Shown here piece after piece: positions 3,001 through 59,916 of a DNA stretch of 64,000 nucleotides (position 1 is the stretch's first letter; each line of letters opens with the position of its first letter). A program made the position numbers and the translations under genes. The DNA is taken from assembly GCF_029633865.1 (NCBI RefSeq), contig NC_079223.1, forward strand, positions 7,602,686-7,666,685, in the 5' to 3' direction. The notes below the pieces were generated by a model. That model was not told the origin of the DNA. It was given only the letters and a program-made list of their open reading frames with translations, and searched no databases. The DNA comes from Lampris incognitus. Taxonomy: Eukaryota > Chordata > Actinopteri > Lampriformes > Lampridae.

Positions 3001-3002
3001 TG
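1..3002 (+). repeat. 19-bp minisatellite array, about 158 copies
   Basis: Tandem units of the form GGGCCTACATGGGCAYGTT run from the window edge to 3002, where the array stops abruptly at a unique sequence (gccgtgtgcc). Units differ mainly by C/T at the CpG (gcacgtt versus gcatgtt), by tctac versus cctac, and by occasional ctttgg, tatatgg and cacggg variants. The unit has no stop codon on the plus strand in any frame and 19 is not a multiple of three, so all three plus frames stay open for 875 codons or more and each spells the same 19-residue repeat (LGLHGHVGPTWACWAYMGT type). The minus strand has a stop (tag) in most units. It is a satellite, not a gene. It continues past the left edge of the window. 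Confidence 0.97.
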
Positions 3003-4178: not shown

Positions 4179-4450
4179 ATCCATCCATCCATTACCCGAA
4201 CCGCTTACCCTGCACTCAGGGCCGCGGGGATGCTGGAGCCTATCCCAGCAGGCGGGGACACACCCTGGACAGGCTGCCCACCCACACAAACACACACACA
4301 TTCATACCTAGGGACAATGTAGTACGGCCGGTTCACCTGACCTACATGTGTTTGGCCTGTGGGAGGAAACCCGAGGCCCCGGAGGAAACCCACGCAGACA
4401 CGGGGAGAACCCCGGGGCTTGAACCCACGACCTTCTTGCTGAGGTGACCG
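4179..4450 (+). repeat. Dispersed fish repeat of the CATCCATCC / gaaccgctta type
   Basis: The segment begins catccatccatccattacc, continues with gcggggatgctggagcc, a cggggacacaccctggacag block, ggaggaaacc blocks, and ends near cttgaacccacgacctt. The same order of blocks is found at 38841-41090 (interrupted by a minisatellite) and a short piece at 26447-26520. This identifies a dispersed repeat family that is very common in fish genomes. I cannot assign its class with confidence. Confidence 0.8.
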
Positions 4451-5698: not shown

Positions 5699-8284
5699 TC
5701 ACTGTGTCATACATCCAGACTGCTTCAGCGATTCTGTGTCAATCCACTTCTTCTCTATTTCCACCTATGAAGAGAGAATTAGACAATTGAGTTACCATGG
5801 TTTCAAGAACAAACACATTTGTCTCCATACTTTTCTCCATCTCATTATATAGGTATCACTAGTGAGGATGCATGCGTTGTGTTACTCATATGTCTTACCT
5901 GACAATGGTAACGTGTCCAGCTGGTCACATGCTTCTGTGGCTGGATGTCATTTACAGTGCCCAAGGACTTGATCCGGGTCTGTGACACAACTGCCCCCAT
6001 AATTTCACATTCCATGGTGACGAAGGGGTACCAGTCATTTGGGATATCCTGATCAGATCCCAGCTCTAGCTTGCAGGAAAATGAATGGGGATGATCCACA
6101 GCTGCCAATTAAAGAACCAAGATTGCATGGAATCAGTGTATTATACCACCAAGTCACACACAAAGCGGAGTAAAGAATTGGCATGAGGCCACACCCAAGA
6201 AGCTTGTGAGAAAACAGTCTCTTACACTATAGTGCCATACAATTTTTTGGCTCTGGTTGTTCCCCCAATTGACTAAAGTTTGAATGACACCCCAGTTCTA
6301 TCCTGTGCTGCCCCTACTCTCATGGACTGCTTGACTCTTTAAATCAAAAGAGTTACAAAAAAACAAAAACCAAAACACAACTCTTAGAGTAAGAAATGCA
6401 TTGTTCATTACCTGTGTTCTTTGCAGGCAGTCTGTCAATTCTCCAGACAATAGCTGAATATACATTCTCATACTTGACTGTCCCAATTGACACCTGCATG
6501 ATAGGCTGAGACTCTGCAGCACTGACAGCGCCCAGGCAGGCGTTTCTATTCATACGGGCCTTCAGCGACCTTTGTCGCAGTAAGGTTACTGTTTGGGACA
6601 CTTTGACCCAGTCACTTGGTACTGGCACACGGATCACGATGTTCTCGCACAGTGGCTGTGCATCAAATGTCCTTGCAGAGGAAGGGAAGGTTGCGGACAA
6701 GTTAAGAAAGGCTTGGAGCTCCACATAGGCTCCTTGTACTGTGACCACAGCTTTAATTGAGAAGGGAATCTCTGTACATCCCAGTGACGTGGTGTTGTAT
6801 CGCATCAGCTCCACCCTGCAAGCGTCAGGAGGTGAAAACTTAATCAGACGAGACCTCTGAAACTCCACCTCGTTGATGCATCTGTGTAAATGATAGTCAG
6901 CGATCTCCATCCAGGTCTCATTTCCCTCCTCACACCCGTAACTAGAGTCAAAGCGCAGCAGTCCCAGATCATTCAGTGCCAGGAAACAGTGCCCATCTCC
7001 ATTCAGAAAAGCTAGGCAGTGAATCTGTGTCAAGGCTGCCCGTTCCACTATTCCCCCAGCCTTATCCAGCTGTATCCAAATGTGATCAGTGACCTGCAAT
7101 GACAGTTCCTTCTCCTCGTAATGCCGTCGTTGTTGGTGTGGTGGAGACAACCTGAAGATTTCCTCTTCCATGGAGACCAACAGGTCCTCCATATCGTCAT
7201 GCTCTGTGGTGCCAAACTTGAGCAGCTGCTCTATCTCAGCCTCATGAGTAACCTCCAGCTTTGGATGGTAGCGCTTCTTCTCCGTGTATGAGAAATGTTC
7301 GACTTTGACTGTGAGGATCTTGCGGGACTCACCATAGCTCTCCGGCTTAAGGTCTGAGAGCCTACAGTGAGGGAGGAGCTGGAACTCCTTGAATGGCTTC
7401 TCCAGTCCTTTCTCGTAGTACATCTGCAGCACACCCCCTGGCAACAGGCGGAGATAGATTGGTCCCCACTGCCGAGAAGACATGCGATTCTTTTTTTCTG
7501 GGATCCTGAGCATCAACGACCAACCATCTCTCTTCTGGCTACGGAACAGTCCTTGGGGAACAAACTGTGAGGAACCATTCGTGACCTGCCTGCCTCCCAA
7601 TTCCGTTTTGCAGCTTAGTTGTTTCTCTGCAGCTATCTCCGTCTGTGCTTCATGGTCCTTCTCTGCTCGTAGGCCCTCCAACTTGTGGCAAATGTAGGAG
7701 AAGGAGCTCTGGAGTTGGTCACGTGGTGGTACACTGCCATCTTTAGCCCGGATGAAGAACCGTGGAAGATTGGTTTCAGATTCGGAGTCTGAAGAGGAAC
7801 TTGCCAAATCCACACTGGGGCCAGATTCCTCCCAGAAGGGGTTCAAGTGTCCCGATTTTCCCCGGAAAGAGGGAAAAGGGTTTGGCCCATCAGAGGTCTT
7901 ATTCAAGACCAGAATGCCATCTGGATCTGAGGTGGGCATGGAAGAAGTAGAAGTGTTGGAGGGGCTTTGGAAGGTATCGTTCTTTTCCAAAGTGCCGAAA
8001 TGAAATGGTGATGCATTGCTAGGAACCCCACCCACAGGAGTGCAAAAGGGAGTGTTATTTGGCGCAAAGGAGCTTCCATTACTAGAGTGTACCTGAGGAG
8101 ATTCTGAGGAACTGCTAAAGCTCCAGGAGAGATCTCTGGTAGGAGGGAGCACCAACTTCAGACCATTGGGACGAGGCACTGATGCTCCATTAGGCGACGA
8201 TGACTGTTGGGGCTTTTGAGGAGATGAGAGTGGTGTACTGTCGTCTTCAAATGTAACCCAGTTTGAATTGTTCATAGAACACAT
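5699..8284 (-). CDS. STON1: Stonin-1, complete coding region in three exons
   Basis: Endocytic adaptor of the stonin family, related to AP-2 medium chains and expected at the plasma membrane and clathrin coats. Coding exons on the minus strand are 8284-6412 (1873 nt), 6101-5899 (203 nt) and 5764-5699 (66 nt), with GT-AG introns in phase 1 and phase 0. The sum is 2142 nt, or 713 residues, close to the roughly 735 of mammalian stonin-1. The start MCSMNNSNWVTFEDD matches the family N-terminus and carries a WVxF motif (W9-F12), the type that binds the AP-2 alpha ear in stonin 2. Two NPF motifs (135-137, 148-150), typical EH-domain ligands, lie in a Ser/Pro-rich N-terminal half. The stonin homology domain starts near residue 253 (DGWSLMLRIPEKK) and leads into the mu-homology domain that fills the C-terminal half. 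The last exon encodes VEIEKKWIDTESLKQSGCMT plus Q and stop, as in other stonins. The largest part lies in a single exon, as in mammals. Stonin-2 is excluded by the N-terminus and by synteny. Confidence 0.97.
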
Positions 8285-8361
8285 TTTTGGAATGTTGACT
8301 TTTCAGGTTCAAAACAAGAGTTTCTTCTTCGTCTGACTGATTCCCCCTCACTTCAGAATCC
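8285..8361 (-). other. STON1: STON1 5' UTR segment with splice acceptor
   Basis: On the minus strand a pyrimidine-rich tract followed by catcacacag meets exon sequence starting at 8361, 77 nt before the STON1 ATG. This implies that the large coding exon is preceded by at least one non-coding exon further right. Confidence 0.75.
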
Positions 8362-12135: not shown

Positions 12136-12849
12136 CGGCCAGCTCTGCGCTTTACAATTACACAAGAACAAATCCAAACCCCTGATGAGAGGAAAATCCC
12201 TGACCCCCCCCCCCTTCATGTGTTGAGATCAACTACAGGAGGAAATATCAACGTCTCACATTAACAATCCGATGCAAAACAAAAACAGGCATTTCTAAAA
12301 TTTAACTAACCCCCTATGGAGTCAGTTTCACACGTCCAAACAGGGTCCCCCTCGCCCCCCATCTCCAAGAAATCCTCATAATAAAGGACGTAAAGGACAA
12401 GCTGACATGACCGGTGCCAGACGGAGGGGGCGCGATGCCTCCCGGGGAGGTGAACTGAAGTGACTCGTCTGCTTCTCCCGGGCGGTTTCTAGCCCCGCGG
12501 CGACCCTCCGAGTCGGTGCTGCCGTTTCCAAGCCCTCGTTCAGGACTCACGAATCAGAGGCAATTCGGGTTTTCTTAAAAACCGTAACGTTACAGGGCTG
12601 GTCCATAACAGAAGAGGGGGGGCAGTTAATAAAAAACGAGGCAGAGCACTTACATAAGAGAAACAATAAAGCGAAGTTAAACAATGATTGTAAACATGTA
12701 TCCGATTCACAGCTCACGCGCCCGGTTCAACAGTTTGTGCCCGCTTGAATCCTACTGATGCTGAACTCCCACTCGCATTCCAACGGGTCCTTCCGTTCCT
12801 GCGGAGGAAGATGGGCCCTTCTGCCGCCGACGGCAGTCATGTTTTATAC

Positions 12850-13350
12850 CCCACAGCCGCCTCGCTGGGACTACCCACCCCACAGCCGCCTCGCTGGGAC
12901 TACCCACCCCACAGCCGCCTCGATGGGACTACCCACCCCGCAGCCGCCTCGCTGGGACTACCCACCCCACAGCCACTACCCACCCCACAGCCGCCTCGCT
13001 GGGACTACCGACCCGACTGCCGCCTCGCTGGAACTACCCACCCCACAGCCGCCTCGCTGGGACTACCGACCCCACAGCCGCCTCGCTGGGACTACCGACC
13101 CGACTGCCGCCTCGCTGGGACTACCCACCCCACAGCCGCCTCGCTGGGACTACCCACCCCACAGCCGCCTCGCTGGGACTACCCACCCCACAACCGCCTC
13201 GCTGGGGCTACCGACCCCACAACCGCCTCGCTGGGGCTACCGACCCGTCTGCCGCCTCGCTGGGACTACCCACCCCACAACCGCCTCGCTGGGACTACCG
13301 ACCCCACAACCGCCTCGCTGGGACTACCGACCCGTCTGCTGCTGCCGGGC
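12850..13350. repeat. 29-bp GC-rich minisatellite, about 17 copies
   Basis: Tandem units of cagccgcctcgctgggacta plus cccacccca, with cgactgccgcc, cacaaccgcc and cgtctgccgcc variants. Two overlapping plus-strand frames are open through it (243 and 199 codons) and give a PRWDY / AGTTHPTAASLGLPTPQ repeat, but no flanking sequence supports a gene. Confidence 0.93.
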
Positions 13351-20800: not shown

Positions 20801-23800
20801 GCACAGCAGGGCTCTAACATTGCCCCAACAAGCCCTGCAAGACATAACAGTAAGAGCAAGCAAACAGCTACTTAAGTTTGAAATGGATGGCGGGGGGGAG
20901 GGGGGGGTCTGATGACTACTCAGGCAAACAGCTCTCGAGTGCAAACACATCCTGAGCTCCGTAATGAAACCGTGTTACATAAACAGTATTCTTCCATTCT
21001 GCTACATCAGCACATTTAAAGTTCAGGTTTTATTAAGGAAAACGATGCCCTGTGTGGGAGCAGCAGGGGAGACTGATGACAGTCCCTTTCTTAAAGGATA
21101 ATTCTGGGGGGGGGTTTTACATCCTGGGTGTTATGTTTGTAGCGTTTGCCGTCGTGCATATTGGTTATGATGATATAATTCTAAACACCAACTTCATTGT
21201 GGAGATTTTTGACATAAACAGCACCACCAGACACAGCTTTACAAGTCGGACATGTTTCGACAAGTCCAGTTTAACCCAATTATCCTCATACTAGCTAGAT
21301 AAATATCCAGCCACTGCAGCGGGTTTACTAGGATTTTGGATTTCACCCTACAGTTTATGTAAAGGTGAGCCACATACTACACAATAAAAAAAAAAAACTG
21401 TGTGCGTGCAAATGGGTTGGTTGAACCAGGGTGTAGCTCAACAGTGCGACTGTCCATTAAAACTCGCATTTCAGGTAATAACATTTAACTTTCGCTGTTG
21501 TTTCACTTCCAAAAATGTGGTGAAGAAAACCGGGTTGAACTGGACTTGTTGAAACATGTCTGACACTTCTGTTCCTTGACCCTAAAAGACACCGCTGTAA
21601 AGCTGTGTCTATTTGTGACAGGATGTGCGAGTATTTTTAACAGACACCGTTTCTTTCAGACTCTCAAACTACAGAGAGTCCAGTCTGAATGAATTAATTT
21701 AATCCACTTTTTTACAGTGATAATTTCCTGGCCCACAAACTGTCCCTGCCACATGTCTTCTGGCACACAGACACAGACAAAGATGGTAGCTGAGGGCTCA
21801 TTTTTTAAAACATGATTAAAAACAACAAAAGCGCCAAGTTATTTAGCAAGACATCTATAGAGTCTGGAGAGTCGGATAGTTCAACATCACATTCTCTCCC
21901 CGTTTCTGTGGATGCTGTGTAACGTTAGTTAATGGGGCTCCTTCAGGGCAGCTAGTCCGCATCCCACTCCACCACAACGATGAACTAAGCCCCGCATGTC
22001 ACAACTCAACTTAATTATATGTCTTGAATACGTTTTTAGTGGTTTTCTTTCTGAGTGATCGACTGGCTGATCCAGTAGCTCGCCCTGATTCAGCCAGCGA
22101 TTGAACTTCTGAGCTCTCAGTTCATTCATTCACTTCACTGACAGATTTCATAAAACACCTGTGGAATCAAAGAGCATTTGGCACTGAACAAGTTTAAAAA
22201 TGTGTGAGTTATTGAGTGATTATTATCGGAGAACAGACAGACTATCACAAAGGCAGGCATGCTCGAGGCTCATGCTCATTCGTTGCCGTTCTCAAATCTC
22301 TCAGATTGGTAGGACGTGTTGCCTTCCAGAGTCTGCTGCTTTTGGTTTGTGGCGAGATCTGCTGTGAATCTGGTTGAACGTTAAACATGTTCACATGCCA
22401 GTTGATTCAACTCACACAAAAGAGTTGGTTTTTCTGAACAATTAATTTGTGAATCGCACATTACTACAATTTACAATTTCATTTAGAAGACGCTTTTATC
22501 CAAAGCGACGAACATCTGAGAGTTAATACAACACACGCAAGGATCTAGTCAGGAGGCAACAATGCAAGTAAGTGTAAAAAAAAAAATAATAAAAAAAACT
22601 AGGTTCAAGTCCAATGGGACATACACTCACTGGCCACTTTATTAGGTACACCTTGCTAGTACCGGGTTGGACCCCCTTTTGCCTTCAGAACTGCCTTAAT
22701 CCTTCGTGGCATAGATTCAACAAGGTACTGGAAACATTCCTCAGAGAGTTTGGTCCATATTGACATGATAGCATCACGCAGTTGCTGCAGATTTGTCAGC
22801 TGCACATCCATGATGCGAATCTCCCGGTCCACCACATCCCAAAGGTGCTCTATTGGATTGAGATCTGGTGACTGTGGAGGCCATTTGAGTACAGTGAACT
22901 CATTGTCATGTTCAAGAAACCAGTCTGAGATGATTCGAGCTTTATGACATGGCGCGTTATCCTGCTGGAAGTAGCCGTCAGAAGATGGGAACACTGTGGT
23001 CATTAAGGGATGGACATGGTCAGCAACAATACTCAGGTAGGCTGTGGCGTTGACACGATGCTCAATTGGTACTAAGGGGCCCAAAGTGTGCCAAGAAAAT
23101 ATCCCCCACACCATTACACCACCACCAGCAGCCTGAACCGTTGATACAAGGCAGGATTGACGCCAAATTCTGACCCTACCATCCGAATGTCGCAGCAGAA
23201 ATCGAGACTCATCAGACCAGGCAACGTTTTTCCAATCTTCTATTGTCAAATTTTGGTGAGCCTGTGTGAATTGTAGCCTCAGTTTCCTGTTCTTAGCTGA
23301 CAGGAGGGGCACCCGGTGTGGTCTTCTGCTGCTGTAGCCCATCTGCCTCAAGGTTTGACATGTTGTGCGTTCAGAGATGCTCTTCTGCATACCTCGGTTG
23401 TAATGAGTGGTTATTTGAGTTACTGTTGCCTTTCTATCAGCTCGAACCAGTCTGGCCATTCTCCTCTGACCTCTGGCATCAACAAGGCATTTTCGCCCAC
23501 AGAACTGCCGCTCACTGGATATTTTCTCTTTTTCGGACCATTCTCTGTAAACCCTAGAGATGGTTGTGCGTGAAAATCCCAGCAGATCAGCAGTTTCTGA
23601 AATACTCAGACCAGCCCGTCTGGCACCAACAACCATGCCACGTTCAAAGTCACTTAAATCACCTTTCTTCCCCATTCTGATGCTCGGTTTGAACTGCAGC
23701 AGATCGTCTTGACCATGTCTACATGCCTAAATGCATTGAGTTGCTGCCACGTGATTGGCTGATTAGAAATTTGTGTTAACGAGCAGTTGGACAGGTGTGC

Positions 23801-26800
23801 CTAATAAAGTGGCCGGTGAGTGTAGGTGTCAATGGGCAGTGCACAAAGGCAATGCATAGGGTGCATAGAAGTGAATTTCTTTTGTTTTATTTTATTTATT
23901 TTTATTTTTTTACCAGCAGTTGTGGAGGTGTTCAAGAAAGAGCTGGGTCTTTAGCTTCCTCTTAAAGATGGAGAGGGACTCAGTGGATCGAATGGAGCTT
24001 GGTAACTCGTTCCACCAACAGGGAACTACAGAAGATAAGAGTCTGGCTAGTGACTTAAGCCCCCGTTGTGGCGGAAGTGCCAGGCACCTTTCATTGGCAG
24101 AGCGTAGTGAGCGGGACTGAGTGTGGACCTGAATGAGGAAGTTCAGGTAGGCGGGAGCCGTTTTAGTTGCTGTTTTGTAAGCAAACATTAAGGTTTTGAA
24201 TTTGATGCAGGCAGCAACTGGCAGCCAGTGGAGGGATATGAACAGCAGAATGACATGTGCTGTTTTGGGTTGGTTGAAGACCAGACGCACCGCCGCATTC
24301 TGGAACATCTGCAGAGGTTTGAAAGTGCATGCAGGGAGACATGCCAGTAAGGAGTTGCATGACATAACAAAAGCCTGTACCCGGAGTTGTGCTGCATGCT
24401 CAGATAGGTAGGGTCTAATTTTTCTGATGTTATACAAGGCAAATCAGCATGACCAAACAATCGCAGCCACGAGAACCTTAAAGGTTAGTTGGTCATCAAT
24501 CATGACACCCAGGTTTCAGGCAGACTTTGTGGGCATGAGTTGAGTTGATCTGAACTGGATATTGATCCGTTGTTGTAAGGATGGACTGGCTGGGACGACA
24601 AGGAGCTCAATTTTAGATAGGTTAAGCTGAAGGTGGCGTTCTTTCATCCATGCAGAGATATCAGTAAGGCATGACGATATCCATGCTGAGACTGTGAGGT
24701 CATCTGGCAGGAATGACAGGAAGAGCTGGGTATCGTCAGCATAGCAATGGTATAAGAAACCATGGGAGCGGATGATTGAACCAAGTGAGGTGGTGTATAT
24801 TGAGAAGAGAAGGGAACTGAGCACTGACTCTTGAGGTACCCCTGTGGATAAGCCGTGCGGTTCAGACATTTTTCCCCTCCAAGATACTCTAAAAGATCTC
24901 CCTGAGAGGTAGGAAATGAACCAGCGGAGGGCAGATGCTGAGATGCCAAGCTCAGTGAGTGTGGATAGGAGGATTTGGTGATTAACTGTGTCAAGGCAGC
25001 TGACAGATCTAGCAGCAATTAAGCTGAGGACTGACCAGCAGCTCTACCCAAAGGCAGTGATTCTACTACCGACAGGACTGCAGTCTCGGTAGAGTGACCC
25101 CCGCTTAAAGCCAGATTGATTCAGAGCATGCATATTGTTCTCAGAAAGGAATTCAGAGACTTGGTTAAAGACTGTGTGCTCAAGTATTTTTGAAAGAAAG
25201 GGTAGGAGTGAAACTAGTCTGTAGTTTTCAACCTGGGCTGGGTTGGGTGTAGGTTTTTTGAGCAGCGGGGTGACCTGAGCTTGCTTAAATGCGGTGGGGA
25301 ACACACCTGTTGTAAGCCAGGATTTGATATGTGTGACTGCGGGGTTAAGTGTGGGGGAAATGGTCTGCAGGAGGTTGGATGATATTGGGTCCAGCTGACA
25401 GGTAGTGGGACGAGAGTTAAGCAGAAGCTTGGAGACTTCCTCCTCGGTCAGGGGGGAGAATGAGGTGAGTGGGGTACTGTTAGCTGGCAGTGGCAGACAG
25501 AGTTGGTCAGGCTCAGAGAGCTGGTTACTGATGGCAGAAATCTTATCAGTAAAGTACGAGGTGAACATGTCAGGAGTGAGCCAAGTGGAGGTCGGAGGAG
25601 GCGGCTTGAGGAGTGAGTTAGAAGCAAAAAACATTTTTAGAGCATTAGTGGCGCCACAGATCTTGTTCTGATAGTAAGTGGTCTTAGCTGGTTTTAAGCT
25701 GGAGGAGAAGGATGCTAGGAGACGCTGATAGTCACTGAGGTCAGTGGACTCTATGGTTTTACGTCATTTTCTCTCTGCCACTCTGAGCCCTGCCCTTTGC
25801 TCTCTGATGACCTCAGTGAGCCATGGACTAGGGGGGGCATTACGAGTAGGTTTGGATGCTAGAGGGCAGAGACTGTTGAGAGAGGAGGCTAGTGAGGAAC
25901 AGAGTGTCTGTAGCCTCTTGGAACAGGAAGTGAAGAGAATTCATTATGAGTAGGTATGGAAACCAAGACCTCAGTGGAGAGCTGGGTCGGTGTAAGGGAC
26001 CAGAAGTTTCAGCGGAAGGAGACCCTTTGTGGAGGAATGTGAGGATGTTCCAGTAAGGAGGCCGTAAATTGAATAAAGAAGTGGTCTGACAGATATAGGA
26101 GGGTGACAGTCAGATTTGCTGTGGAGCAGTTCCAAGTCAAAATCAGATCAAGAATATTGCCCGCTTTGTGTGTGGGAGGGATGGGGGCCTGTCTGAGGTC
26201 AAAGGAGGACAGAAGAGACAGGAAGTCAGTCGTTTGGGTTTTCTCAGTAAGAGTATTCATGTCTCCCATGACAATCAGTGGACAATTACTACTAGTGACT
26301 AGCGATGCTACTGTGTCCAAAACCCTCTACAATTAACCTGGTGAGTAAAATTATATCATAAACAATATGCACAACTGCAAAAATCAAAAACTACACACAA
26401 AAAAAAAAACACATAAAAAAAACAAAAACCCAACAACCCCAGAACACCCATCCATCCATTATCCAAACCACTTATCCTGCTCTCTGGGTCGTGGGGATGC
26501 TGGAGCCTACCCCCAGAACATCCTTTAGAGCAAAAACATCCACAACCATGCCGTGGGCAGGAAATGTAGCATAGTAAAAGGTTAAAGAGCCAGTGAAGCA
26601 ATCATACCAAGGTAGTGCACAGCACAGCCTCCTTCCCTGTGGTTGTCTGGTCCATCTCTCCATCTTCCTGGTCGTGCATCACTTCAGTGGTTAAAGCTAC
26701 ATGTGAGGTCAGACTACCTCCCAGAGCGGCTGCGAGCTGGGCCTCGAGGTCTGCAATGCGCTGGTTTTCTTTCTCAACCCTAACCTTCCCCAGCTGGGCC

Positions 26801-29800: not shown

Positions 29801-32800
29801 TGAACCGGCGATCCCCGTGTTGGTAGGCAACGGAATAGACTGCTGCACTACCCGGATGCCCCCAAATAACCTTTGTTGAAACACATCTGCACAAATCCTC
29901 TCACCTTTGATAGCATCGTGAAGGCTGTGCAGGCAGGCAGCTAGCTGAGTGAAAACAGCGGAGGAGCTGCTGTGCGGCATCACATCCTGTCGGACACCTG
30001 AGAGACATTTTAGACAGTGTAAAAAAAAAAAGTATCAGTTAATATTAAGTACTTAAAAGCAGTGGAGGGAGCAAAAAAATTGTAGATGACTTGTAAAAGA
30101 ATAATATCGATGAAATGTCAGAGACGGGCATAACAGATAGTGATGTTCAGCAGGTGGAGCTCAAACGTCCCATGTGACTTACTGGGTAAGGCCAACAGGT
30201 TTATGTAGTTCTGCAGTTTCTCAAACACAGACGTTACTTTTTTCATGTCGCTCTGCAACTCTTGGTTCTTAGCAGTAAGGGCAGCAGTGCAAAGGGGCGC
30301 CTCGCACTCTTCCTCCAGGCTAAAAAGAGGATTGGGTAGCAATAAATAAAAAGATTTCTTGCTCTCTTTCTGTCTATGTCATGCACACACATGCAGACAG
30401 ACTTGCTGACCTTTTTAGCTGGTACGGTAAAATCTTCTGCAGAAAATGGGTGTACGTGGAGAAGTGATCGGCAAACTTCTTCAGCTGGCCAACGGTCTCC
30501 TTCATTTCAATAGAACAAATAGAATACAGTTTACGGCTGATCATCCAGCACATATTGGCCAACCACTTTTCCTTACGGCTGTGCAATATGACCAAAATGT
30601 CATATTCCGATACAGGCAATTTCATATCCCAATGACAATACATATCACAATATAGCACATTTTCTGTAAATTCAATGAATAAACAGTTTCTGGTTCGTGC
30701 CCCCCCCTCCCCCCGTGTGTGCACACGCTGTGTGTGTGTGTGGGGGGGCAGCCCCGCCCTCGCTGAACCACAGAGAGCAGAGGAGAGTAGCGCGACCATA
30801 AATGACAGCAAAACGCAGTAGAAACTCTCCCACTGAGCTGAAATGAAAGGAGTGCACATAAATTAGGTAAACAACATTAATAAACATAGTCTCTACTGCA
30901 TTTTGCTGTCATTTGTGGTTGCGTTAGTTTCGCATCTCCTCTGCGCCGCTTCACCGCGGGCGGCGCTCAGCCCTTCCACACATGGAGCTCAGCGGAGCAG
31001 AGAGACAGACAGCAGGAGAGAGCTGACGACAACTACACTAGTTATGTTACTGTAAGTGCAATAAAAGCTTCAGGAGTAAAAAGCCAATAAGAGTAATTTA
31101 TCAATGTAAACCACGCAAAAGATGGACAGACTCCAAATGACGAAAAATATCGCCATAAAGTGTGATTTACGACACAACAAAATAATCACTAGAGCATAAA
31201 CTGAAATGATAGATATTTTTCTATCATCACACAACATGTATTGTCATATCGCACAGCCCTACTTTGCCTCCGTCCCAAAACTGCTCACCAGAACTGTGAC
31301 CGATTCCTCTGTAATGCTCTCATGTACTTGCAGCATGCCATCCTCCAGAGGGCGCACAAAAGCTGCATTTTCATGTAGATACTGGGAAAACTGGGTAATT
31401 GGCAGAAAAGGGGTATGGAAAGATTGTCACTCATGTTGTTTCAAAGTACGAGCTCGCTCTTTAAACATAGACTTACAGTTAATGTAAAGTTTAAGTTGCT
31501 GTAGATATCAAGTCTCAGACTAAATGTCATGGTAGATTTTAGTGAGCGGGTATGGCTGCCTCACCTTCTGGTTAAGAGGGGAGATGGGCTCGATGGAGGA
31601 GTCTAAAGGATAGATGTGCACTCTCTGTTCTGTGTAGGAATGAAAATTCAACAGAGCCGCCACCAAATCCTGCAAAAACCCCAATGCCTGACCAGCTACA
31701 TCCCGGGCCTTCAGCTAGATTGACAGGAAGAGCATAAAACCAACACACAACTGTCAGTGCAAACTTTCCCTAATCGCCTCTTTATCATATGAAGTATAGA
31801 TGAAGTCAAAGATGAACACTGCAGCAACAAGAACATTTTCTCACTAACCTGGTGCCTGCGATTGTGAGGTGGAACATTTAGGCTATTGTAGTCATTAAAT
31901 TCTGGAGAGCCGGAGAGAAGAGCACGCCAGTTAGTTGGGGTAACAGACTTGTTAACTTGACAAAAATGACTTGCTGGTATAGCTTCTCCCTACCTTGCAC
32001 ACTGGACTAGTTCAATCACCAGTCTAATTAACCATCAAGTACAGTGAACTTTATCTGTGGTGGACCCAGTCCCAGAGGTGGGTATGCTATTATAGGTGGC
32101 TGCTTGCCACCAAGTCCTAACCTTGTTTTCAGTTGAGTGAAAATGAGGCTTATACTCACTAGTGTCATTGAAGGGCACTTTCTCTTGGATGACACTACTG
32201 CTTTGTTTCACGTGTCTGTTCAACTCGGACTGGCACCGCCTCAACTGTTGCTGACTGGAGGTGGAGAGACAGTAACCGTGTGAATGACTGGAAATAAAAC
32301 GCACAACAACCAACCTCATGCCTTCCATTCAATTCATCTTCAGCCCACCATGACATTAACAGGGCTAATAAGCACTTCAAAACAGTACGACTACCATCCG
32401 AGTCCTATTCAAACACAATAGCCCAAAGCCAGAGGGGTGAGGTGAGGTGAAGGGTATGTTACCAGTGAAAAGAGGTTACACTGTAAAAAGTAAAACCCAA
32501 ATACTGTAAAAAACTGAGCCCCCACTCTACTTTTGACTTATTTATAATTTTATATTTTCTCTAAGGCCCAAATCTGCCTCTTACTTTCTGCTACTGTACT
32601 CATGGATTCAACTTCTCTCACATTATTAATTAGAAAGAAAGATTTACCACTCCTCTGTTCGCATTCTGCAGTCTTTTGTTTCTCTCTCCAGAGTCTGGGC
32701 TTTTACCTGCCAAAGAAGAGCAGACATGCAGACAAGAAATGAAAACATTTCTCAGTTTAAACCGAAACATTTTTGTCCATTGTATTAGCACTGCCCCATC

Positions 32801-36800: not shown

Positions 36801-38840
36801 CAAAGTTGAAGAAGAAAAAAAAATCAGCGGCGGGTAAACTGTCAAAGCATACCGCCCTCTAGCGGACGGAGATAGAGTTGAACGCACGAACAGCGGACTT
36901 GCTTTCGTTTTACCCATTGGACTTTCTGTGATCCGTGTATTTGAATTCTGCTGTAAACTGAGACGGAATATTGTTTCTTTTAATTGCCAAAAAAAATACA
37001 CACACGGGAATCCACATAACAGCGGTGTACACACCACTTCGAACACAAAGCAGAAACTCACAATGAACAAAACAGACCCCCCCATTTAAAATATAAACCA
37101 CATAATGAAAAAATACATACATTGCATGAAAAAATAGTTAAATTAAATAAAAAGAAAAAAAACAATTGCATTAAAACTGAAAATAAATATAAGAATAAAG
37201 ATGCATTAAATCACAGAATTGTCAGGGGCTTCTTTAAAGACGCAGCGGTTTAACTTTTTTTGTGCCCTGGTTCTCTTTTGATATTCTAACAGAACTTAAG
37301 AGAGGTTCGGGTTCAAGCAGGGAATGGCGCAAGTAAGGTCGGGAATTGGATAAACGCCCGCTTGCGTGAGAAGAACGTTGCCAGTAAAATGAAAAAGTGA
37401 ACCACATGGTGCCGAGGTTTTGTTTTGTGAATTAGACTGGATACTATGACTTCACATGGTGACGTAACCGGACCCTCAAACAAAAACCGACCCCCCCCCC
37501 TCAACCGCCATTTTAGTGGTGAATCAGCTTGAAACGCTGTATGACTTTGTATCGTTGAGTTTTGGTAAGACCGGCGGGGATGGAGGTCTCGACCCAGGGT
37601 GGGCCGCTGCAGCCCCGTGCGGGGGGAGCCCGTGCGGGAGCCCGTGCGCACCACGTGTTTTCCTCGCAACTCGCCGATGGCCTCGTTCGGGCGGAGAGGT
37701 GCGCTGGGACGCCGCACGCGAAATGTGCACATAATTGCGCACCACCTTCACGTGATTCATTCCGGTTTATCCAAATACCACCCCCCCCTCACCACCACCA
37801 CCACCACCTCTTCTGACATCTTAAAAGTCATCGTGGCACCATAGCACGAGTGGATGAATCAGAATTTGATGGACGTCCACCTGCCAGCTGTTAATTCTGT
37901 CTTGCAGAATTCCGAGATGAGTCACGCGCCGAGTTCTCTCATTACCGACAAAACATCATCTCCGGTGATGACGCGCAATTCCTCATTAAAACACAAAAAA
38001 CACAAAACGAGTAAAATACAAACTGTGTGTGTGTGTGTGCGCCTCTCTCTCTCTCACACGCGCGCGCGAGCGCACGCACAGCCAGAGGCTCCAGCATTGT
38101 CTGGTTGCTTGGTAACTGTCGGCGTGGCGTGGTTGCTAAGGCCATGTGGGAGAAGGGGGGAGGCGGCGGTGCTCTGATTTCTCGCTGAATTGAGGCAGTC
38201 AGTAGGGAGAACCCCCCCCCACCCCCTCCCCCTCCCGCTTCCAGTAGACAGAGGACTCTATTGAACAATAGAAGCTGTGCCAATGGGCCTTAGGCTAGTC
38301 AGACAAGCCCTTGTTCAGGGTCACGCTGTGTTCATCGCGCACTCCTCCATGACTAATTAACTAACAGGCAGGCATCGTTAGGACATCTGATGATGCGTCC
38401 ATGACGCGCGCACGCGCACGCACGCGCGCAGCTTTTGGAGTTATCATTAGTGGGAAAAGGTGCAATTTTGGCAACCCGCCATGTTGACACTGAAGCAGCG
38501 GAGAAGACAGACGGGGAGGAAGAAGGGAGGGGGGGGGGGGAGACGGTGGCGGAGCTGCTCGACGGCGAAGTTCTGTGGGGGAGGCGGCCAGCGGCCGCAC
38601 CGCCGTCATGCGGAAGCCGAGGACCCGGCCACACGGAGGGAGAGCTGGCTGTTGCACGCCACGCACCGTTAGTAGCTACCCGTCTAATCTTGTGACCTAC
38701 ACAGAAGGTGGCAATGTTGATCAGAAAACCTAAGCGAGGTTTCCGACCGGCCGAGCAAAGTGACCACGTACACCGGCTGATGCGGACTCCTCAGGTGAAA
38801 GCGTAAAACAAAGACGAAGGTGCATCCACGGAAACCCAGC
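36801..38840. other. Intergenic, partly CpG-rich sequence; no gene recognised
   Basis: The region 37500-38700 is GC-rich with short GT, CT, CG-alternating and CCA repeats (38021-38075, 37786-37807, 38404-38430). Reading frames of up to 139 codons are low-complexity and overlap on both strands. None matches a known family. It could be an extended CpG island. Confidence 0.4.
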
Positions 38841-41090
38841 CATCCATCATCCGAACCGCCTACCCTGAGAGCAGGGTCGCTGGCCGCCCCGCGACCACTC
38901 TGAGAGCAGGGTCGCAGGGCGGCCAGCGACCCTGAGAGCAGGGTAGGCGATTAGGCCGGGATAGGCCCCAGCATCCCCGCGACCCTGAGAGCAGGGTAGG
39001 CGGTTAGGCCGGGATAGGCCCCAGCATCCCCGCGACCCTGCTTTCGGGGTAGGCGGTTAGGCCGGGATAGGCCCCAGCATCCCCGCGACCCTGCTCTCAG
39101 GGTAGGCGGTTAGGCTGGGATAGGCCCCAGCATCCCCGCGACCCTGCTCTCAGGGTAGGCGGTTAGGCCGGGATAGGCCCCAGCATCCCCGCGACCCTGC
39201 TCTCGGGGTAGGCGGTTAGGCCGGGATAGGCCCCAGCATCCCCGCGACCCTGCTCTTGGGGTAGGCGGTTAGGCCGGGATAGGCCCCAGCATCCCCGCGA
39301 CCCTGCTCTTGGGGTAGGCGGTTAGGCCGGGATAGGCCCCAGCATCCCCGCGACCCTGCTCTTGGGGTAGGCGGTTAGGCCGGGATAGGCCCCAGCATCC
39401 CCGCGACCCTGCTCTCGGGGTAGGCGGTTAGGCCGGGATAGGCCCCAGCATCCCCGCGACCCTGCTCTTGGGGTAGGCGGTTAGGCCGGGATAGGCCCCA
39501 GCATCCCCGCGACCCTGAGAGCAGGGTAGGCGGTTAGGCCGGGATAGGCCCCAGCATCCCCGCGACCCTGCTCTCGGGGTAGGCGGTTAGGCCGGGATAG
39601 GCCCCAGCATCCCCACGACCCTGCTCTCGGGGTAGGCGATTAGGCCGGGATAGGCCCCAGCATCCCCACGACCCTGCTCTCAGGGTAGGCGATTAGGCCG
39701 GGATAGGCCACAGCATCCCCGCGACCCTGCTCTCGGGGTAGGCGATTAGGCCGGGATAGGCCACAGCATCCCCGCGACCCTGCTCTCGGGGTAGGCGGTT
39801 AGGCCGGGATAGGCCCCAGCATCCCCACGACCCTGCTCTCGGGGTAGGCGATTAGGCCGGGATAGGCCCCAGCATCCCCGCGACCCTGAGAGCAGGGTAG
39901 GCGGTTAGGCCGGGATAGGCCCCAGCATCCCCGCGACCCTGCTCTCGGGGTAGGCGGTTAGGCCGGGATAGGCCCCAGCATCCCCGCGACCCTGCTCTCG
40001 GGGTAGGCAGTTAGGCCGGGATAGGCCCCAGCATCCCCACGACCCTGCTCTCGGGGTAGGCGGTTAGGCCGGGATAGGCCCCAGCATCCCCGCGACCCTG
40101 CTCTCGGGGTAGGCGGTTAGGCCGGGATAGGCCCCAGCATCCCCGCGACCCTGCTCTCGGGGTAGGCAGTTAGGCCGGGATAGGCCCCAGCATCCCCGCG
40201 ACCCTGCTCTCAGAGTAGGCGGTTAGGCCGGGATAGGCCACAGCATCCCCGCGACCCTGCTCTCGGGGTAGGCGATTAGGCCGGGATAGGCCACAGCATC
40301 CCCGCGACCCTGCTCTCGGGGTAGGCGGTTAGGCCGGGATAGGCCCCAGCATCCCCACGACCCTGCTCTCGGGGTAGGCGGTTAGGCCGGGATAGGCCCC
40401 AGCATCCCCGCGACCCTGAGAGCAGGGTAGGCGGTTAGGCCGGGATAGGCCCCAGCATCCCCGCGACCCTGCTCTCAGGGTAGGCGGTTAGGCCGGGATA
40501 GGCCCCAGCATCCCCGCGACCCTGAGAGCAGGGTAGGCGGTTAGGCCGGGATAGGCCCCAGCATCCCCGCGACCCTGCTCTCAGGGTAGGCGGTTAGGCC
40601 GGGATAGGCCCCAGCATCCCCGCGACCCTGCTCTCAGGGTAGGCGGTTAGGCCGGGATAGGCCCCAGCATCCCCACGACCCTGCTCTCAGGGTAGGCGGT
40701 TAGGCCGGGATAGGCCCCAGCATCCCCGCGACCCTGAGAGCAGGGTAGGCGGTTAGGCCGGGATAGGCCCCAGCATCCCCGCGACCCTGCTCTCAGGGGT
40801 CGCGGGGATGCTGGGGCCTATCCCGGCAGCCATTGGGCGGCAGGCGGGGACACACCCTGGACAGGCCGCCAGGCCATCACACAGCCCCCCCCACCCCCAT
40901 TCACACACCTAGGGGCAATTTGGTCCGGCTGAGTCACCTGACCTACATGTCTTTGGACGGTGGGAGGAAACCGGAGCCCCCGGAGGAAACCCACACAGAC
41001 ACGCAAACTCCACACGGAGGACGACCCCCCCCCAAGGCTGGACTACCCCGGGCCTCGAACCCAGGACCCTTCCCGCTGTGAGGCTACAGC
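38841..41090 (+). repeat. CATCCATCC dispersed repeat split by an internal minisatellite
   Basis: The left end (catccatcatccgaaccgcc, 38841-38928) and right part (gcggggatgctggggcctat ... ggaggaaacc ... cctcgaacccaggaccc, 40795-41090) are in plus orientation and together reproduce the family seen at 4179-4450. Everything between is the 53-bp array. Confidence 0.85.
38929..40798 (-). repeat. 53-bp minisatellite, about 35 copies, inverted inside its parent repeat
   Basis: Unit: gcgaccctgctctcggggta, ggcggttaggccgggatagg, ccccagcatcccc. It equals the reverse complement of the first 50 or so bases of the surrounding dispersed repeat. Most copies read CCCTGCTCTC(A/G)GGG. About seven (near 38934, 38985, 39511, 39885, 40414, 40523, 40733) carry the same 14 bases reverse-complemented, CCCTGAGAGCAGGG. 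Both junctions with the parent are inverted repeats. Confidence 0.95.
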
Positions 41091-41099
41091 AACGTGGCA

Positions 41100-41699
41100 G
41101 GGATGTCTGCTGAGACAAGTTCATTAGAACAAACTCGCGCGCTCGCAGTGGTTAAACAAGAACAGGTTTTATTATTATTTTGTAATACCATATATAATGC
41201 AATTGCATATCTTTGGCGAAAATAAATCTTATAAACATTTTATCAACAGAGGTTAGCATACAAAAACCAAAAGGTGTGTCTGTCTAACAGGCATGGCAGA
41301 CGACTGACACAAACAGATACTGGGTTGGCAGCTTTGCTTAATCAAATGCAACAAAATGCTCTTCGTAACCATCATTTAACTGGATTTTGAAGAATCACAT
41401 AATCAATATTCAATAACAGCTGTTAAGCGATGAAGCGACTGTATGCGGGTTTCGGGGCTGCGTTTGACCTGGGACCCCATAAATAATAATAACAATAATA
41501 ATAGGTAGCTCATCCACAGATTAACATTCATCCAATCTTGAGTTTTGAAACAGTTGCTAACTTTGAGACCAACACAAGTTTTGTTTTGCGAGTGCTACAA
41601 AGGGAGCTCGTGAGTTTCATCACCGACGGTCTCTCCGTCTTTGTTCACCGTTCCTTTCCCATCATTCCAATTTAGGCAAATATCCAATAGTCGACGGTG
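41100..41699 (-). other. Possible distal end of the FOXN2 3' UTR
   Basis: A minus-strand AATAAA sits in a U-rich context at 41168-41173, beyond which the dispersed repeat begins. If used, the FOXN2 3' UTR would be about 4.6 kb. Nothing else was seen here. Confidence 0.2.
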
Positions 41700-51800: not shown

Positions 51801-52789
51801 GCTGTCCCTTTGCGCTGTGAAACAGTTGCCCTACCTTGTAGTGGTGGGAGAGATAAAGCCCTATCGCTCTCTGCTGTGTTTGCATTTCCTCTGAAGGAAG
51901 GTCTGTGACCTTGACAGGATTCCAACCTTATCAGAGGCGAGCCATGGGTCCCTGCGGCTGCTGTACTGCCCCGTCCGCTGTCACATGAGCCCCACTGCAG
52001 CTCTCTCTGCCACAACGCGCTATGCACCAAATGTGTGGCGTTCAAAAATTCAGACGGGGGGGGGGGGGGTTTGAACAGGTGGATCTTACAAGATGACATC
52101 ACCAAGGTAAACCATTCTGACGCCAGCAGCTAAGACTACGTCGTCCTTATTAAAAACACACTAAACGCCAAAGTAAAATGAAACAGACATATACACGAGA
52201 GAGAGAGAGACTGTCAGTTTACCTTCCCCAAGCTTCTCTCCACCTTGCGGAAGCATTTGTTCAGAGACAGGTTGTGACGCACCGAGTTCTTCCAGCCAGT
52301 TGGCGCATTGGAGAAGTACGGGAAGTGCTCAAGAATCCACCCATAGATCTCTTTGACAGGCAAAGACTTGCTGGGGGACTGCTCAATGGCCATGTAGATC
52401 AGCAGAGAGAAGGAGAAAGGGGGCTTTGAGTTCAGCGAGTCCCTCTCTCTGCCTCTGCTGTGTGATGGCGATGACGAAGAGGAAGGGGATGGGCCCTGGC
52501 TGGCCAAGTGGTCCCCTTCGATGTCAAAAAGGGGGCTGGCGCTGAGCTGAGCCTCAGGTCCTCCAAGAGTGAAGTTCTGGAGCAGGTTCTCGTGAAGCCA
52601 GTTGAGGTTGGTCAGCTCCTCGTCCTCAGAGCCTCCGGTACAGTCAACATTGGTGGCTAGCGGACTGGACGCACACTCTGCCTCAGGCAGCGTCCCCGCG
52701 CCACACGCACCTCTGAGGCCCGTCCGCTCCTCCTGCATGCCCGGAATTTCCGCTTTCTTATCTGGTGACATCCCAATGATTGGACCCAT
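45802..52789 (-). CDS. FOXN2: Forkhead box N2 transcription factor, complete in five coding exons
   Basis: Nuclear DNA-binding factor of the FOXN2/FOXN3 group. Minus-strand coding exons are 52789-52223 (567 nt), 50034-49910 (125), 49551-49502 (50), 48763-48695 (69) and 46226-45802 (425). All introns are GT-AG with phases 0, 2, 1, 1. The total is 1236 nt, or 411 residues, against about 430 in mammals. The start [14 protein letters not shown] and the [10 protein letters not shown] segment are diagnostic of FOXN2. The forkhead domain begins at residue 122 ([15 protein letters not shown]), includes recognition helix [13 protein letters not shown] and continues over the first intron into [34 protein letters not shown] (exon 4), [22 protein letters not shown] and the C-terminal [19 protein letters not shown] (exon 5, ending at residue 395) are conserved group motifs. 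Exon 3 is a 50-nt micro-exon. FOXN3 is the only close alternative; the N-terminus and the PPP1R21 neighbourhood decide for FOXN2. Confidence 0.97.
46944..47005 (+). repeat. 62-bp direct repeat, left copy
   Basis: tggtacacgggagataacta ... gagcagcccta; matches 47491-47552 at 59 of 62 positions and flanks the L1 fragment. Confidence 0.9.
47006..47490 (+). mobile_element. L1-type LINE 3' fragment (FOXN2 intron 4)
   Basis: The plus frame reads [20 protein letters not shown], the characteristic C-terminal region of fish L1 ORF2, with frameshifts around it, followed by an untranslated-like 3' end (ctgcacctgtatatgtcttt). It is 485 bp, heavily 5'-truncated, and bounded by 62-bp direct repeats. Confidence 0.75.
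47491..47552 (+). repeat. 62-bp direct repeat, right copy
   Basis: Partner of 46944-47005, directly after the L1 fragment. Confidence 0.9.
47860..48455 (+). mobile_element. Retroposon-like dispersed element, copy 2, with internal duplication (FOXN2 intron 4)
   Basis: Same blocks as 41815-42245. The ctgggagagctgg ... catgcagaccggc part occurs twice (47880-47955 and 48060-48235). The 3' end is gtgaaatgacaaataaagtg then ttcctgattcctgg, a tail type common in fish retroposons. Confidence 0.65.
49502..49551 (-). other. FOXN2: FOXN2 50-nt micro-exon
   Basis: Acceptor ccgctgcag and donor aaag|gtgagatc bound 50 nt reading [17 protein letters not shown]. Entry phase 2 and exit phase 1 are exactly what is needed to join exon 2 (ending cccag) to exon 4 (starting agtctgac, giving ESDID). 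Without it the join gives an immediate stop. Confidence 0.85.
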
Positions 52790-52803
52790 TAAACCAAGCA
52801 GGT
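52790..52803 (-). other. FOXN2: FOXN2 5' UTR segment and splice acceptor
   Basis: ttcttttttgttttgcag|acctg on the minus strand is a strong acceptor 14 nt before the ATG, so at least one non-coding exon lies to the right, possibly in the CpG-containing stretch at 60340-60650 or outside the window. Confidence 0.8.
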
Positions 52804-53885
52804 CTGCAAAACAAAAAAGAAGAAAAAGTTAAGATATTGAACAGAGAGAGGCAACACACACGGCAAAAACCTGGAGCATTTGACGGCGAGTTGATTTTGG
52901 CAGTTGGAAATAACTGGACGCGATGCACTGGGGTGATAGGCTCGTTTAAGTCTAACTAACATCCAAGTCAAACTTGTTTTCCCAAGGTTCCCCAGGCGGC
53001 ACACACTCTGCAGTCCTGCCTGTCTGCTCTCATTTCACATCCCGGCCTTCTCTCAACACCCCTCTCTCCCGCACATCTCACCGAGATGGAGAGGCTCTCC
53101 GCACTCCCCTCCAGACTCCAGCCAAGGACCTTTGAGGAGGTCCTCTCGACTTAAGGCTCCACTCCTAAACGCCCACCTCATTTCAGGCAAGACGCGGCCT
53201 CTCATCAAGTGTAATTTAAATGAGCATGAAACCGTTGGTAAAAATCAAAGCCACAACCGCAAGAATGAGTGGAGGGCCTCCATTTGACAGAGTGGATGGT
53301 TCCTGGACACAGAGCTGCATTCAGCCAAGGCCGAGGACCAGTGTGCCACATGCCACATGAAGTGGCAACCAGAAGCTGCAGGTCTGGGTCTCCTTAGTCA
53401 TTTAATAGCACTGGCAAATTGCCAGTTGACCCATTTCAATGAGAAGTACCACCCAAGAACCTCTTAGAATTCATCAACGGGACCGAGCTACTTTTAGACG
53501 TCACACTGTTAAACCTCTGGCAGGAGCAGTGTTCAGTAGTCAGCATCTTGTGCAATAACAAGAACACCTAAAAGGCCATCCAACTGGGATTATGGGTACA
53601 TTAGAGGTGTGGTTAGGTGCCGAGTATCTGCAGGCTTTACGAAATCATCTCAGGTTAGTCAAACAGCCTCTCATCCAATGTGACTTTTGTAAAACATTGA
53701 CACACAGGTGAGTCTTATGAAAGGGTTGCTAAGACAGCGAGGTAACCACTGTAAGTACTACTGCTCCCACACCAAATGAACTCCCGCCCTGGCACACAAA
53801 CTCTGGCAGTCACATTCACTGCTGTTTAACACCTCAGCCAATACCTGTAATTTTACTGAAGTACTTCCTTAGGGTACAACTGAAT
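52804..53885. other. FOXN2 upstream sequence; nothing recognised
   Basis: Unique-looking sequence without a credible reading frame or repeat. Confidence 0.4.
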
Positions 53886-59406: not shown

Positions 59407-59732
59407 ATGACAGGGGGGGAGGGGGAGAGAGTGAGCAAGAGAGAGAGGGGGGGAGAGAGGGAGGGAGGAGAGAGCAAGAGACAGAGGGAGGAGAGAGAGA
59501 GAGGAAGGAGAGAGAGAGCAAGCGAGAGAGAGACAGAGGGAGACGAGAGAGACAGCGAGAGAGAGCAGAAGAGAGAGAGAGAGCAAGAGAGAGAGGGAGA
59601 GAGACAGAGACAGTGAGAGAGAGAGAGCAAGAGAGAGAGGGAGAGCGACAGAGACCAGAGAGAGAGAGAGCAAGAGAGAGAGAGAGAGCAAGAGAGAGAG
59701 AGAGAGAGTAAGAGAGAGAGGGAGAGCGACAG

Positions 59733-59772
<40 letters not shown>

Positions 59773-59866
59773 CAGAGACCAGAGAGAGAGAGCAAGAGAG
59801 AGAGAGAGCAAGAGAGAGAGAGAGAGCAAGAGAGAGAGAGAGCAAGAGAGAGAGGGAGAGCGACAG

Positions 59867-59915
<49 letters not shown>
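59407..59915. repeat. Purine-rich (GA)n tract, about 500 bp
   Basis: Almost pure A/G on the plus strand, with GAGAGA runs broken by gacagagacc and gagcaag units that repeat in the second half. Frames on the opposite strand (SLSLSLS-type, up to 197 codons) are artefacts of the repeat. Confidence 0.95.

Positions 59916-59916
<1 letters not shown>

Follow-up and report, generated by a model that had tools for sequence, protein, structure and literature searches.

We found that a 53-bp minisatellite in the genome of Lampris incognitus lies inverted within the short interspersed element (SINE) copy that is its parent and that a small hairpin in the minisatellite unit occurs with its loop in two opposite orientations. 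The locus belongs to a 64,000-nucleotide stretch (the window), which sits at G000:C16:7602686-7666685 in the genome assembly, and the array is known here from the assembly sequence alone. Positions 38,841-41,090 of the window are a tRNA-type SINE, antisense on the + strand, with the minisatellite inserted within it. We consider it probable that template switching directed by the hairpin turned the loop once or twice and that duplication then spread the product. The features concerned are the following.

38841..38882, minus strand: host SINE 3' tail (sense GGTTCGGATGATGGATGG) with the hairpin loop flipped (CTCT in sense), one of the seven CTCT matches genome-wide; from sequence and alignment.

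38851..38955, unstranded: left junction, an inverted duplication with 46-nt arms (38851-38896 and 38910-38955, 85% complementary) and a 13-nt spacer.

38941..40800, plus strand: 53-bp minisatellite of 34 full units plus one cut, made of the SINE 3' end in sense and so opposite in orientation to the host copy; from the tandem-repeat call, phasing, and unit typing.

38983..38996, plus strand: first AGAG (ancestral-loop) 14-mer, followed by those at 39513, 39884, 40414, 40520, and 40732, and one in a partial unit at 38930; from unit typing and a 14-mer scan.

39089..39102, minus strand: first of eight exact reverse-complement copies (loop CTCT), followed by those at 39142, 39672, 40467, 40573, 40626, 40679, and 40785; from the 14-mer scan.

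40757..40827, unstranded: right junction, a fold-back palindrome with 31-nt perfect arms (40757-40787 and 40797-40827) around TGCTCTCAG; from sequence comparison and folding.

40797..41090, minus strand: host SINE 5' part, antisense; from sequence and alignment (77% over 220 bp to the copy at 4207-4402).

Near the right end of this 5' part, minus strand: B-box-like motif, sense GGTTCGAGGCC; from alignment.

The tandem array has a period of 53, 35.1 copies, 94% matches, and 0% indels. Cut in phase, it gave 34 full units and a 35th, cut unit that continues into the host SINE, and all 34 of 34 spacings were exactly 53 bp. A preliminary description of the window had derived the unit, in reverse complement, from the left end of the enclosing repeat, which is its 3' end. 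This was borne out: in an alignment judged by eye, 51 of the 53 bases of the unit agree with the sense strand of the SINE 3' end. Because the unit is the SINE 3' end in sense and the host copy is antisense, the array is inverted inside its parent copy. The terminal units are longer and run into the SINE, on one side into the 5' part from 40797 and on the other into the tail at 38841-38882, both in the opposite orientation. We also found that the unit aligns to 39 further SINE copies, which are all the nonlocal matches from a genome search with the array unit in which 40 of 132 candidates were scored. None of the 351- to 361-bp stretches fetched for these copies held a tandem copy, although with this number of candidates scored, other arrays may be missed; a second match within one of them (L012, on contig C10) is that copy's own palindrome and not a tandem copy.

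The unit hairpin has arms of 6 bp, ACCCTG and CAGGGT (flanking A/T included), which enclose a loop of 4 nt, either AGAG or CTCT. Between ACCCTG-AGAG-CAGGGT and ACCCTG-CTCT-CAGGGT, the arms are kept and the loop is the exact reverse complement. The 14-mer CCCTGAGAGCAGGG was found 16 times in the window, 8 times per strand, where 0.00 was expected. A flipped segment of 14 bp had been described, and its exact reverse complement is present, but the arms are self-complementary, so only the 4-nt loop is known to have turned and the minimum turning stretch is 4 nt. Over the 35 units, we counted 6 with CCCTGAGAGCAGGG (AGAG), 8 with its exact reverse complement (CTCT), and 21 with decayed CTCT forms (CTCTCGGGG in 15 units, CTCTTGGGG in 4, CTTTCGGGG in 1, and CTCTCAGAG in 1). 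After the first, the AGAG units are 11, 18, 28, 30, and 34. Outside the full units, the AGAG form also occurs at 38930, in the leading partial unit, and at 38863, in the left host flank. Compared with shuffled sequences, the unit hairpin folded with z scores of -3.8 with AGAG and -2.6 with CTCT and more weakly with a mutated arm.

To polarize the two loop states, we counted them in the whole genome. The 24-bp AGAG sequence CGACCCTGAGAGCAGGRTARGCGG matched 8,321 times (4,137 and 4,184 on the two strands), including 6 matches in this array. In contrast, its CTCT version matched 7 times, 6 in the array and 1 in the left flank, and nowhere else. In the perfect-arm context (CAGGGT), AGAG had 267 matches, 261 of them outside the array, versus 7 for CTCT, all at this locus. 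Among the 39 fetched copies, 38 loops were AGAG-like (21 exactly so) and 1 was CTCT. Read in sense, the other copies in the window have AGAG (at 26,446) and AGTG (at 4181), and the left host flank has CTCT. The loop at the right junction was dropped as support for polarity, since the same loop gives both states when read from either side. With 8,321 AGAG and 7 CTCT intact matches genome-wide, all 7 of them here, we concluded that AGAG is the ancestral form and that 29 of the 35 units are derived, 21 of these being already decayed. The preliminary description was thus right that the 14-mer occurs in two orientations and had the direction reversed, as the seven minority copies (six units and the leading partial) that it took for flips are the ancestral ones.

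Inverted repeats had been described at both junctions, and the quoted pairs are exact: on the left, GGGTCGCTGGCCGCCC at 38874 and GGGCGGCCAGCGACCC at 38917; on the right, GTCGCGGGGATGCTGGGGCC at 40799, whose partner occurs 25 times in the array. The arms are larger than quoted (46 nt on the left and 31 nt on the right). The left junction, in which a 22-bp module, GGTCGCTGGCCGCCCCGCGACC, stands once per orientation with one mismatch, folded at -50 kcal/mol against a shuffle mean of -22.7 (z, -10.1). The right junction folded at -48.4 kcal/mol against -18.1 (z, -11.7). Here the last unit (sense) passes into the host SINE (antisense), and the change of SINE strand lies inside the hairpin.

We found strand changes at the same hairpin in two other SINE copies. 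In the copy on C10 (L012/L050; L050:410-800), the tail side of the hairpin has been replaced by a backward copy of the body side, after which the tail resumes, so that the loop lies between perfect arms of 22 bp. The geometry matches that of the right junction, with no array present. A genome search for the exact fold-back pattern found one place, the C10 copy; the array junction has one extra G and so did not match. The copy on contig C6 (L021/L051; L051:150-535) has a CTCT loop and an altered right arm as well, with 13-bp arms containing 2 mismatches. By the same rule (2 mismatches allowed), the arms of the remaining 37 of the 39 copies are 8 bp or shorter. The array and the left flank are each flipped, longer-arm strand switches occur at 2 of the 39 fetched copies, and no clean flip was found elsewhere. 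Taken together, these sequences point to strand switching at the SINE hairpin in at least three loci, with a clean turn of the loop that leaves the rest intact at this locus only. The C10 copy is a possible first step toward an inverted array.

A strand switch at a short inverted repeat can produce all of the changes described: the change of SINE strand, the lengthening of the arms, and the turning of the loop. According to the model that we favor, the starting point would be a SINE copy with a small hairpin near its 3' end (here ACCCTG-loop-CAGGGT). The polymerase would change strand at this hairpin and, where the tail side should follow, copy body-side sequence in reverse, which would produce a long palindrome and a sense-oriented piece of the 3' end inside an antisense element. 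Such a product would have the geometry of the present right junction and, independently, of the C10 copy. Slippage or unequal exchange could then have made the inverted piece into the 53-bp minisatellite. At an early stage, one unit would have had its 4-nt loop turned from AGAG to CTCT by a switch of strand that entered and left through the arms. The derived units would have spread while the arm decayed (CAGGG to CGGGG and others), and the AGAG units would have persisted and moved with duplications. For the left flank, a further flip or an exchange with the array would be required. The preliminary description had named a hairpin or template switching as a plausible cause of local inversion, and the strand switches at the same hairpin in the C10 and C6 copies make this a good mechanism. 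We propose no function for the locus and regard it as a neutral scar of unstable DNA.

Repeated flipping, in which the loop inverts again and again in the array and the AGAG units are back-flips of perfect-arm CTCT units, would also account for two loop states. At the right end (units 28-35), AGAG and CTCT units that are otherwise identical alternate, the AGAG units are free of mutations as recent back-flips should be, and back-and-forth flips are documented in the yeast genes SPO75 and YBZ1 (PMC8604942). AGAG also stands in 6 of the 14 perfect-arm units and in 0 of the 21 others (hypergeometric, 0.002). Since the arm mutations arose on the CTCT lineage, descent explains this restriction as well as a requirement for intact arms does. 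The 34 full units are of 14 types, and the six AGAG units are one of these, letter-for-letter identical. AGAG is thus found on one background, whereas CTCT units with intact arms are found on four, and the minimum spanning tree of the 14 types needs one edge between the loop states. Outside the locus, no clean flip stands against 261 perfect-arm AGAG copies. In a toy simulation pooled over settings, in which 690 of 18,000 runs passed a filter on make-up, the pattern seen here, with identical minority units split among five or more separate runs along the array, arose in 17 of the 76 single-flip simulations that passed and in 37 of the 614 recurrent-flip ones. Repeated flipping, as implied in the preliminary description, is therefore improbable: the lack of clean flips outside, the six identical AGAG units, and the one flip edge make a single flip in the array the better reading, with a few flips possible.

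Loop orientation could instead have been exchanged between the host SINE (antisense) and the array (sense) when these inverted copies underwent gene conversion or crossing over at the palindrome. Such an exchange would fit the right junction, where a left half in sense meets a right half in antisense at the palindrome, and also the left-flank loop, which is opposite to the orientation of the host. However, in one sequence it is indistinguishable from template switching. The C10 copy shows the same geometry of the palindrome and has no array, so an array partner is not needed, and the left side shows an extra inverted duplication where a simple reciprocal product is expected. We consider such an exchange a rather unlikely origin. 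An artefact of assembly or library preparation (a fold-back chimera or a collapsed or misordered array) is harder still to credit, even though fold-back inverted duplicates are a known long-read artefact. The exact spacing of the units speaks against it, the two junctions differ from each other as in a real array, and the internal variation is ordered, neighbors being more alike than in shuffled arrays (lag 1, P = 0.008, uncorrected among 24 lags).

Hairpin-directed switching followed by duplication also has observations to contend with. The AGAG units are mutation free although theirs is the older form, which needs a recent spread. One candidate for a duplicated block is as follows.

39696..39960, plus strand: five-unit block, units 15-19, resembling units 25-29 (40226-40490), with an AGAG unit at the same place in each; 2 differences over 5 units, permutation P = 0.041.

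This block repeat is weak (P of 0.041 for k = 5, 0.094 for k = 4, and 0.359 for k = 6), and exact block repeats of unit types did not exceed the length expected by chance (longest, 2; permutation fraction, 0.95). Similarity between units ten apart (lag 10) had a P of 0.038, likewise uncorrected among 24 lags. The stem is 6 bp here, versus arms of more than 9 bp in the yeast cases (PMC8604942); it may be too weak alone, and the long junction palindromes may have helped. Avian hotspots without stem-loops are on record (PMC3123225). The 39 copies were found with a CTCT-bearing query, which favors copies with a switch, and 2 of 39 is not a rate. Finally, a control hairpin in another array of the window, ACATG-GG-CATGT, showed 0 flips in 52 exact-arm copies; this control is weak, as it has a 2-nt loop and weaker arms. 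We separately noted that AGAG units follow a CCCCACG unit in 3 of 5 cases (permutation P = 0.053) and did not rely on this.

The control comes from a 19-bp tandem array of about 158 copies at 1-3002, which reaches the left end of the window. A flip scan of this array found 33 segments of 3 bp that match the reverse complement (CAT/ATG), and 16 of its 158 units are one base out of phase. Because of these out-of-phase units, we judged the 3-bp matches to be probable register shifts; by loop count, 52 of 52 were unflipped. A 29-bp tandem array at 12848-13333, for which a 58-bp period was called as well, had 0 reverse complements among 21 multibase segments (12 units) and none at all in a further count (4 units).

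The components of the proposed history have precedents. SINE-derived satellites of squamate reptiles are tandem arrays made from part of a SINE (PMC10702118), and as here, their longer terminal units enter the SINE ends. They involve other SINE families and hosts, and a check for four word stems found no mention of inversion, orientation, palindromes, or hairpins in the main text. The present array opposes its parent SINE. In Saccharomyces cerevisiae, spacer inversion by template switching was reported in ten genes, four of them repeatedly and one (REG2) with arm extension (PMC8604942). There too, a spacer of 2 to 5 bp is inverted and the arms are kept, and the REG2 extension resembles the C10 and C6 copies; the yeast cases are single-copy coding genes with arms of more than 9 bp, in contrast to 6-bp arms in a tandem array. 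Small inversions of plastomes are always bounded by hairpins (PMC6824564) and likewise vary in loop orientation on constant stems, with loops of 4 to 24 bp and several changes per site, but they concern organelle DNA compared between species rather than nuclear DNA compared between units of one array. Inverted repeats flank the microinversions that distinguish human from chimpanzee, for which break-induced replication was proposed (PMC8755829); these share the exact reverse-complement replacement between inverted repeats and differ in being 17 to 33 nt long and at single sites. Origin-dependent inverted-repeat amplification (ODIRA; PMC10766183) also makes inverted junctions by a strand switch at a short inverted repeat, albeit with much larger segments and in yeast.

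We conclude that the locus is a new combination of known processes. Among the papers listed in searches on minisatellite flips and fish SINE minisatellites, nothing was recognized as this array, and among those listed in the literature searches as a whole, none was seen to join a SINE-derived array and loop inversion in one inverted array; this is weak evidence of absence, as most subscription journals lay outside the searches. The earlier statement that no such minisatellite had been described thus stands for the combination, within the literature searched, and falls for loop inversion itself, which is known back and forth in yeast (PMC8604942) and plastomes (PMC6824564). Two topics that are usually separate come together in this locus: how SINEs give rise to tandem repeats and how sequence inverts at short hairpins. 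Its ancestral state is firmly known, since 8,321 copies in this genome serve as reference. The locus provides a worked example of the route by which a SINE becomes an inverted array by way of a palindromic copy, and it warns that multibase differences between units may be one event. A more speculative extension, to which we give little credence at present, is that the SINE hairpin is a repeated strand-switch site that occasionally makes palindromic copies, with the C10 copy as a frozen step, and that these seed backward, loop-flipping minisatellites. If so, one array would record strand-switch events unit by unit.

The host element is a SINE of the tRNA-derived kind, judged from the sequence of its family: a tRNA-like head, taken from a relative on contig C6, a high copy number, and a simple-repeat tail. 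The C6 relative has an A-box-like TGGCGCAGTGG and a B-box-like GGTTCGAGTCC. In the host copy itself, the alignment left the B box (GGTTCGAGGCC) alone recognizable, not the A box. The family is abundant, its 24-bp 3'-end part matching exactly 8,321 times in its own 1.48-Gb genome. ATGG-type tails were seen in the SINE copies printed from the genome, and the 3' end of the host copy has one at 38,841. ARAGORN and Rfam searches of the window found nothing. For a target-site duplication of the host copy, we compared 38790-38849 with 41060-41179 and found no direct repeat of at least 8 bp; such duplications can vanish in old or rearranged SINE copies.

Two more copies lie in the window. The copy at 4207-4402 shares its body with the host copy (77% over 220 bp), and a third, truncated at its 5' end, is found near 26,446-26,513; within the segment 26440-26520, it is flanked by the 7-bp direct repeat CAGAACA. 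Pieces of the SINE are also present in a microsatellite primer pair of a Neotropical fish (PMC5855144) and in a paper on zebrafish soat (PMC5147938), with the repeat left unnamed in both passages; their presence in two fish papers fits a fish repeat. In viral contigs, the hairpin had 0 matches and the SINE 1, and the same numbers were found in bacterial and archaeal genomes. We dropped these SINE matches as chance, since they share 19 to 21 bp and otherwise consist of pieces of 10 to 21 bp only.

Elsewhere in the window, 10 of the 24 listed open reading frames (ORFs) were scanned for domains. We found an adaptor medium subunit at 6353-8302, a PPP1R21 helical domain at 30374-30862, and a Forkhead domain at 52214-52828, which fit a vertebrate STON1-PPP1R21-FOXN2 neighborhood. 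At 22656-25043, the minus strand carries a reverse-transcriptase fragment and an ORF with domains of Tc3-type transposase. An imperfect GA-rich tract of about 490 bp, with 73% matches, spans 59425-59916.
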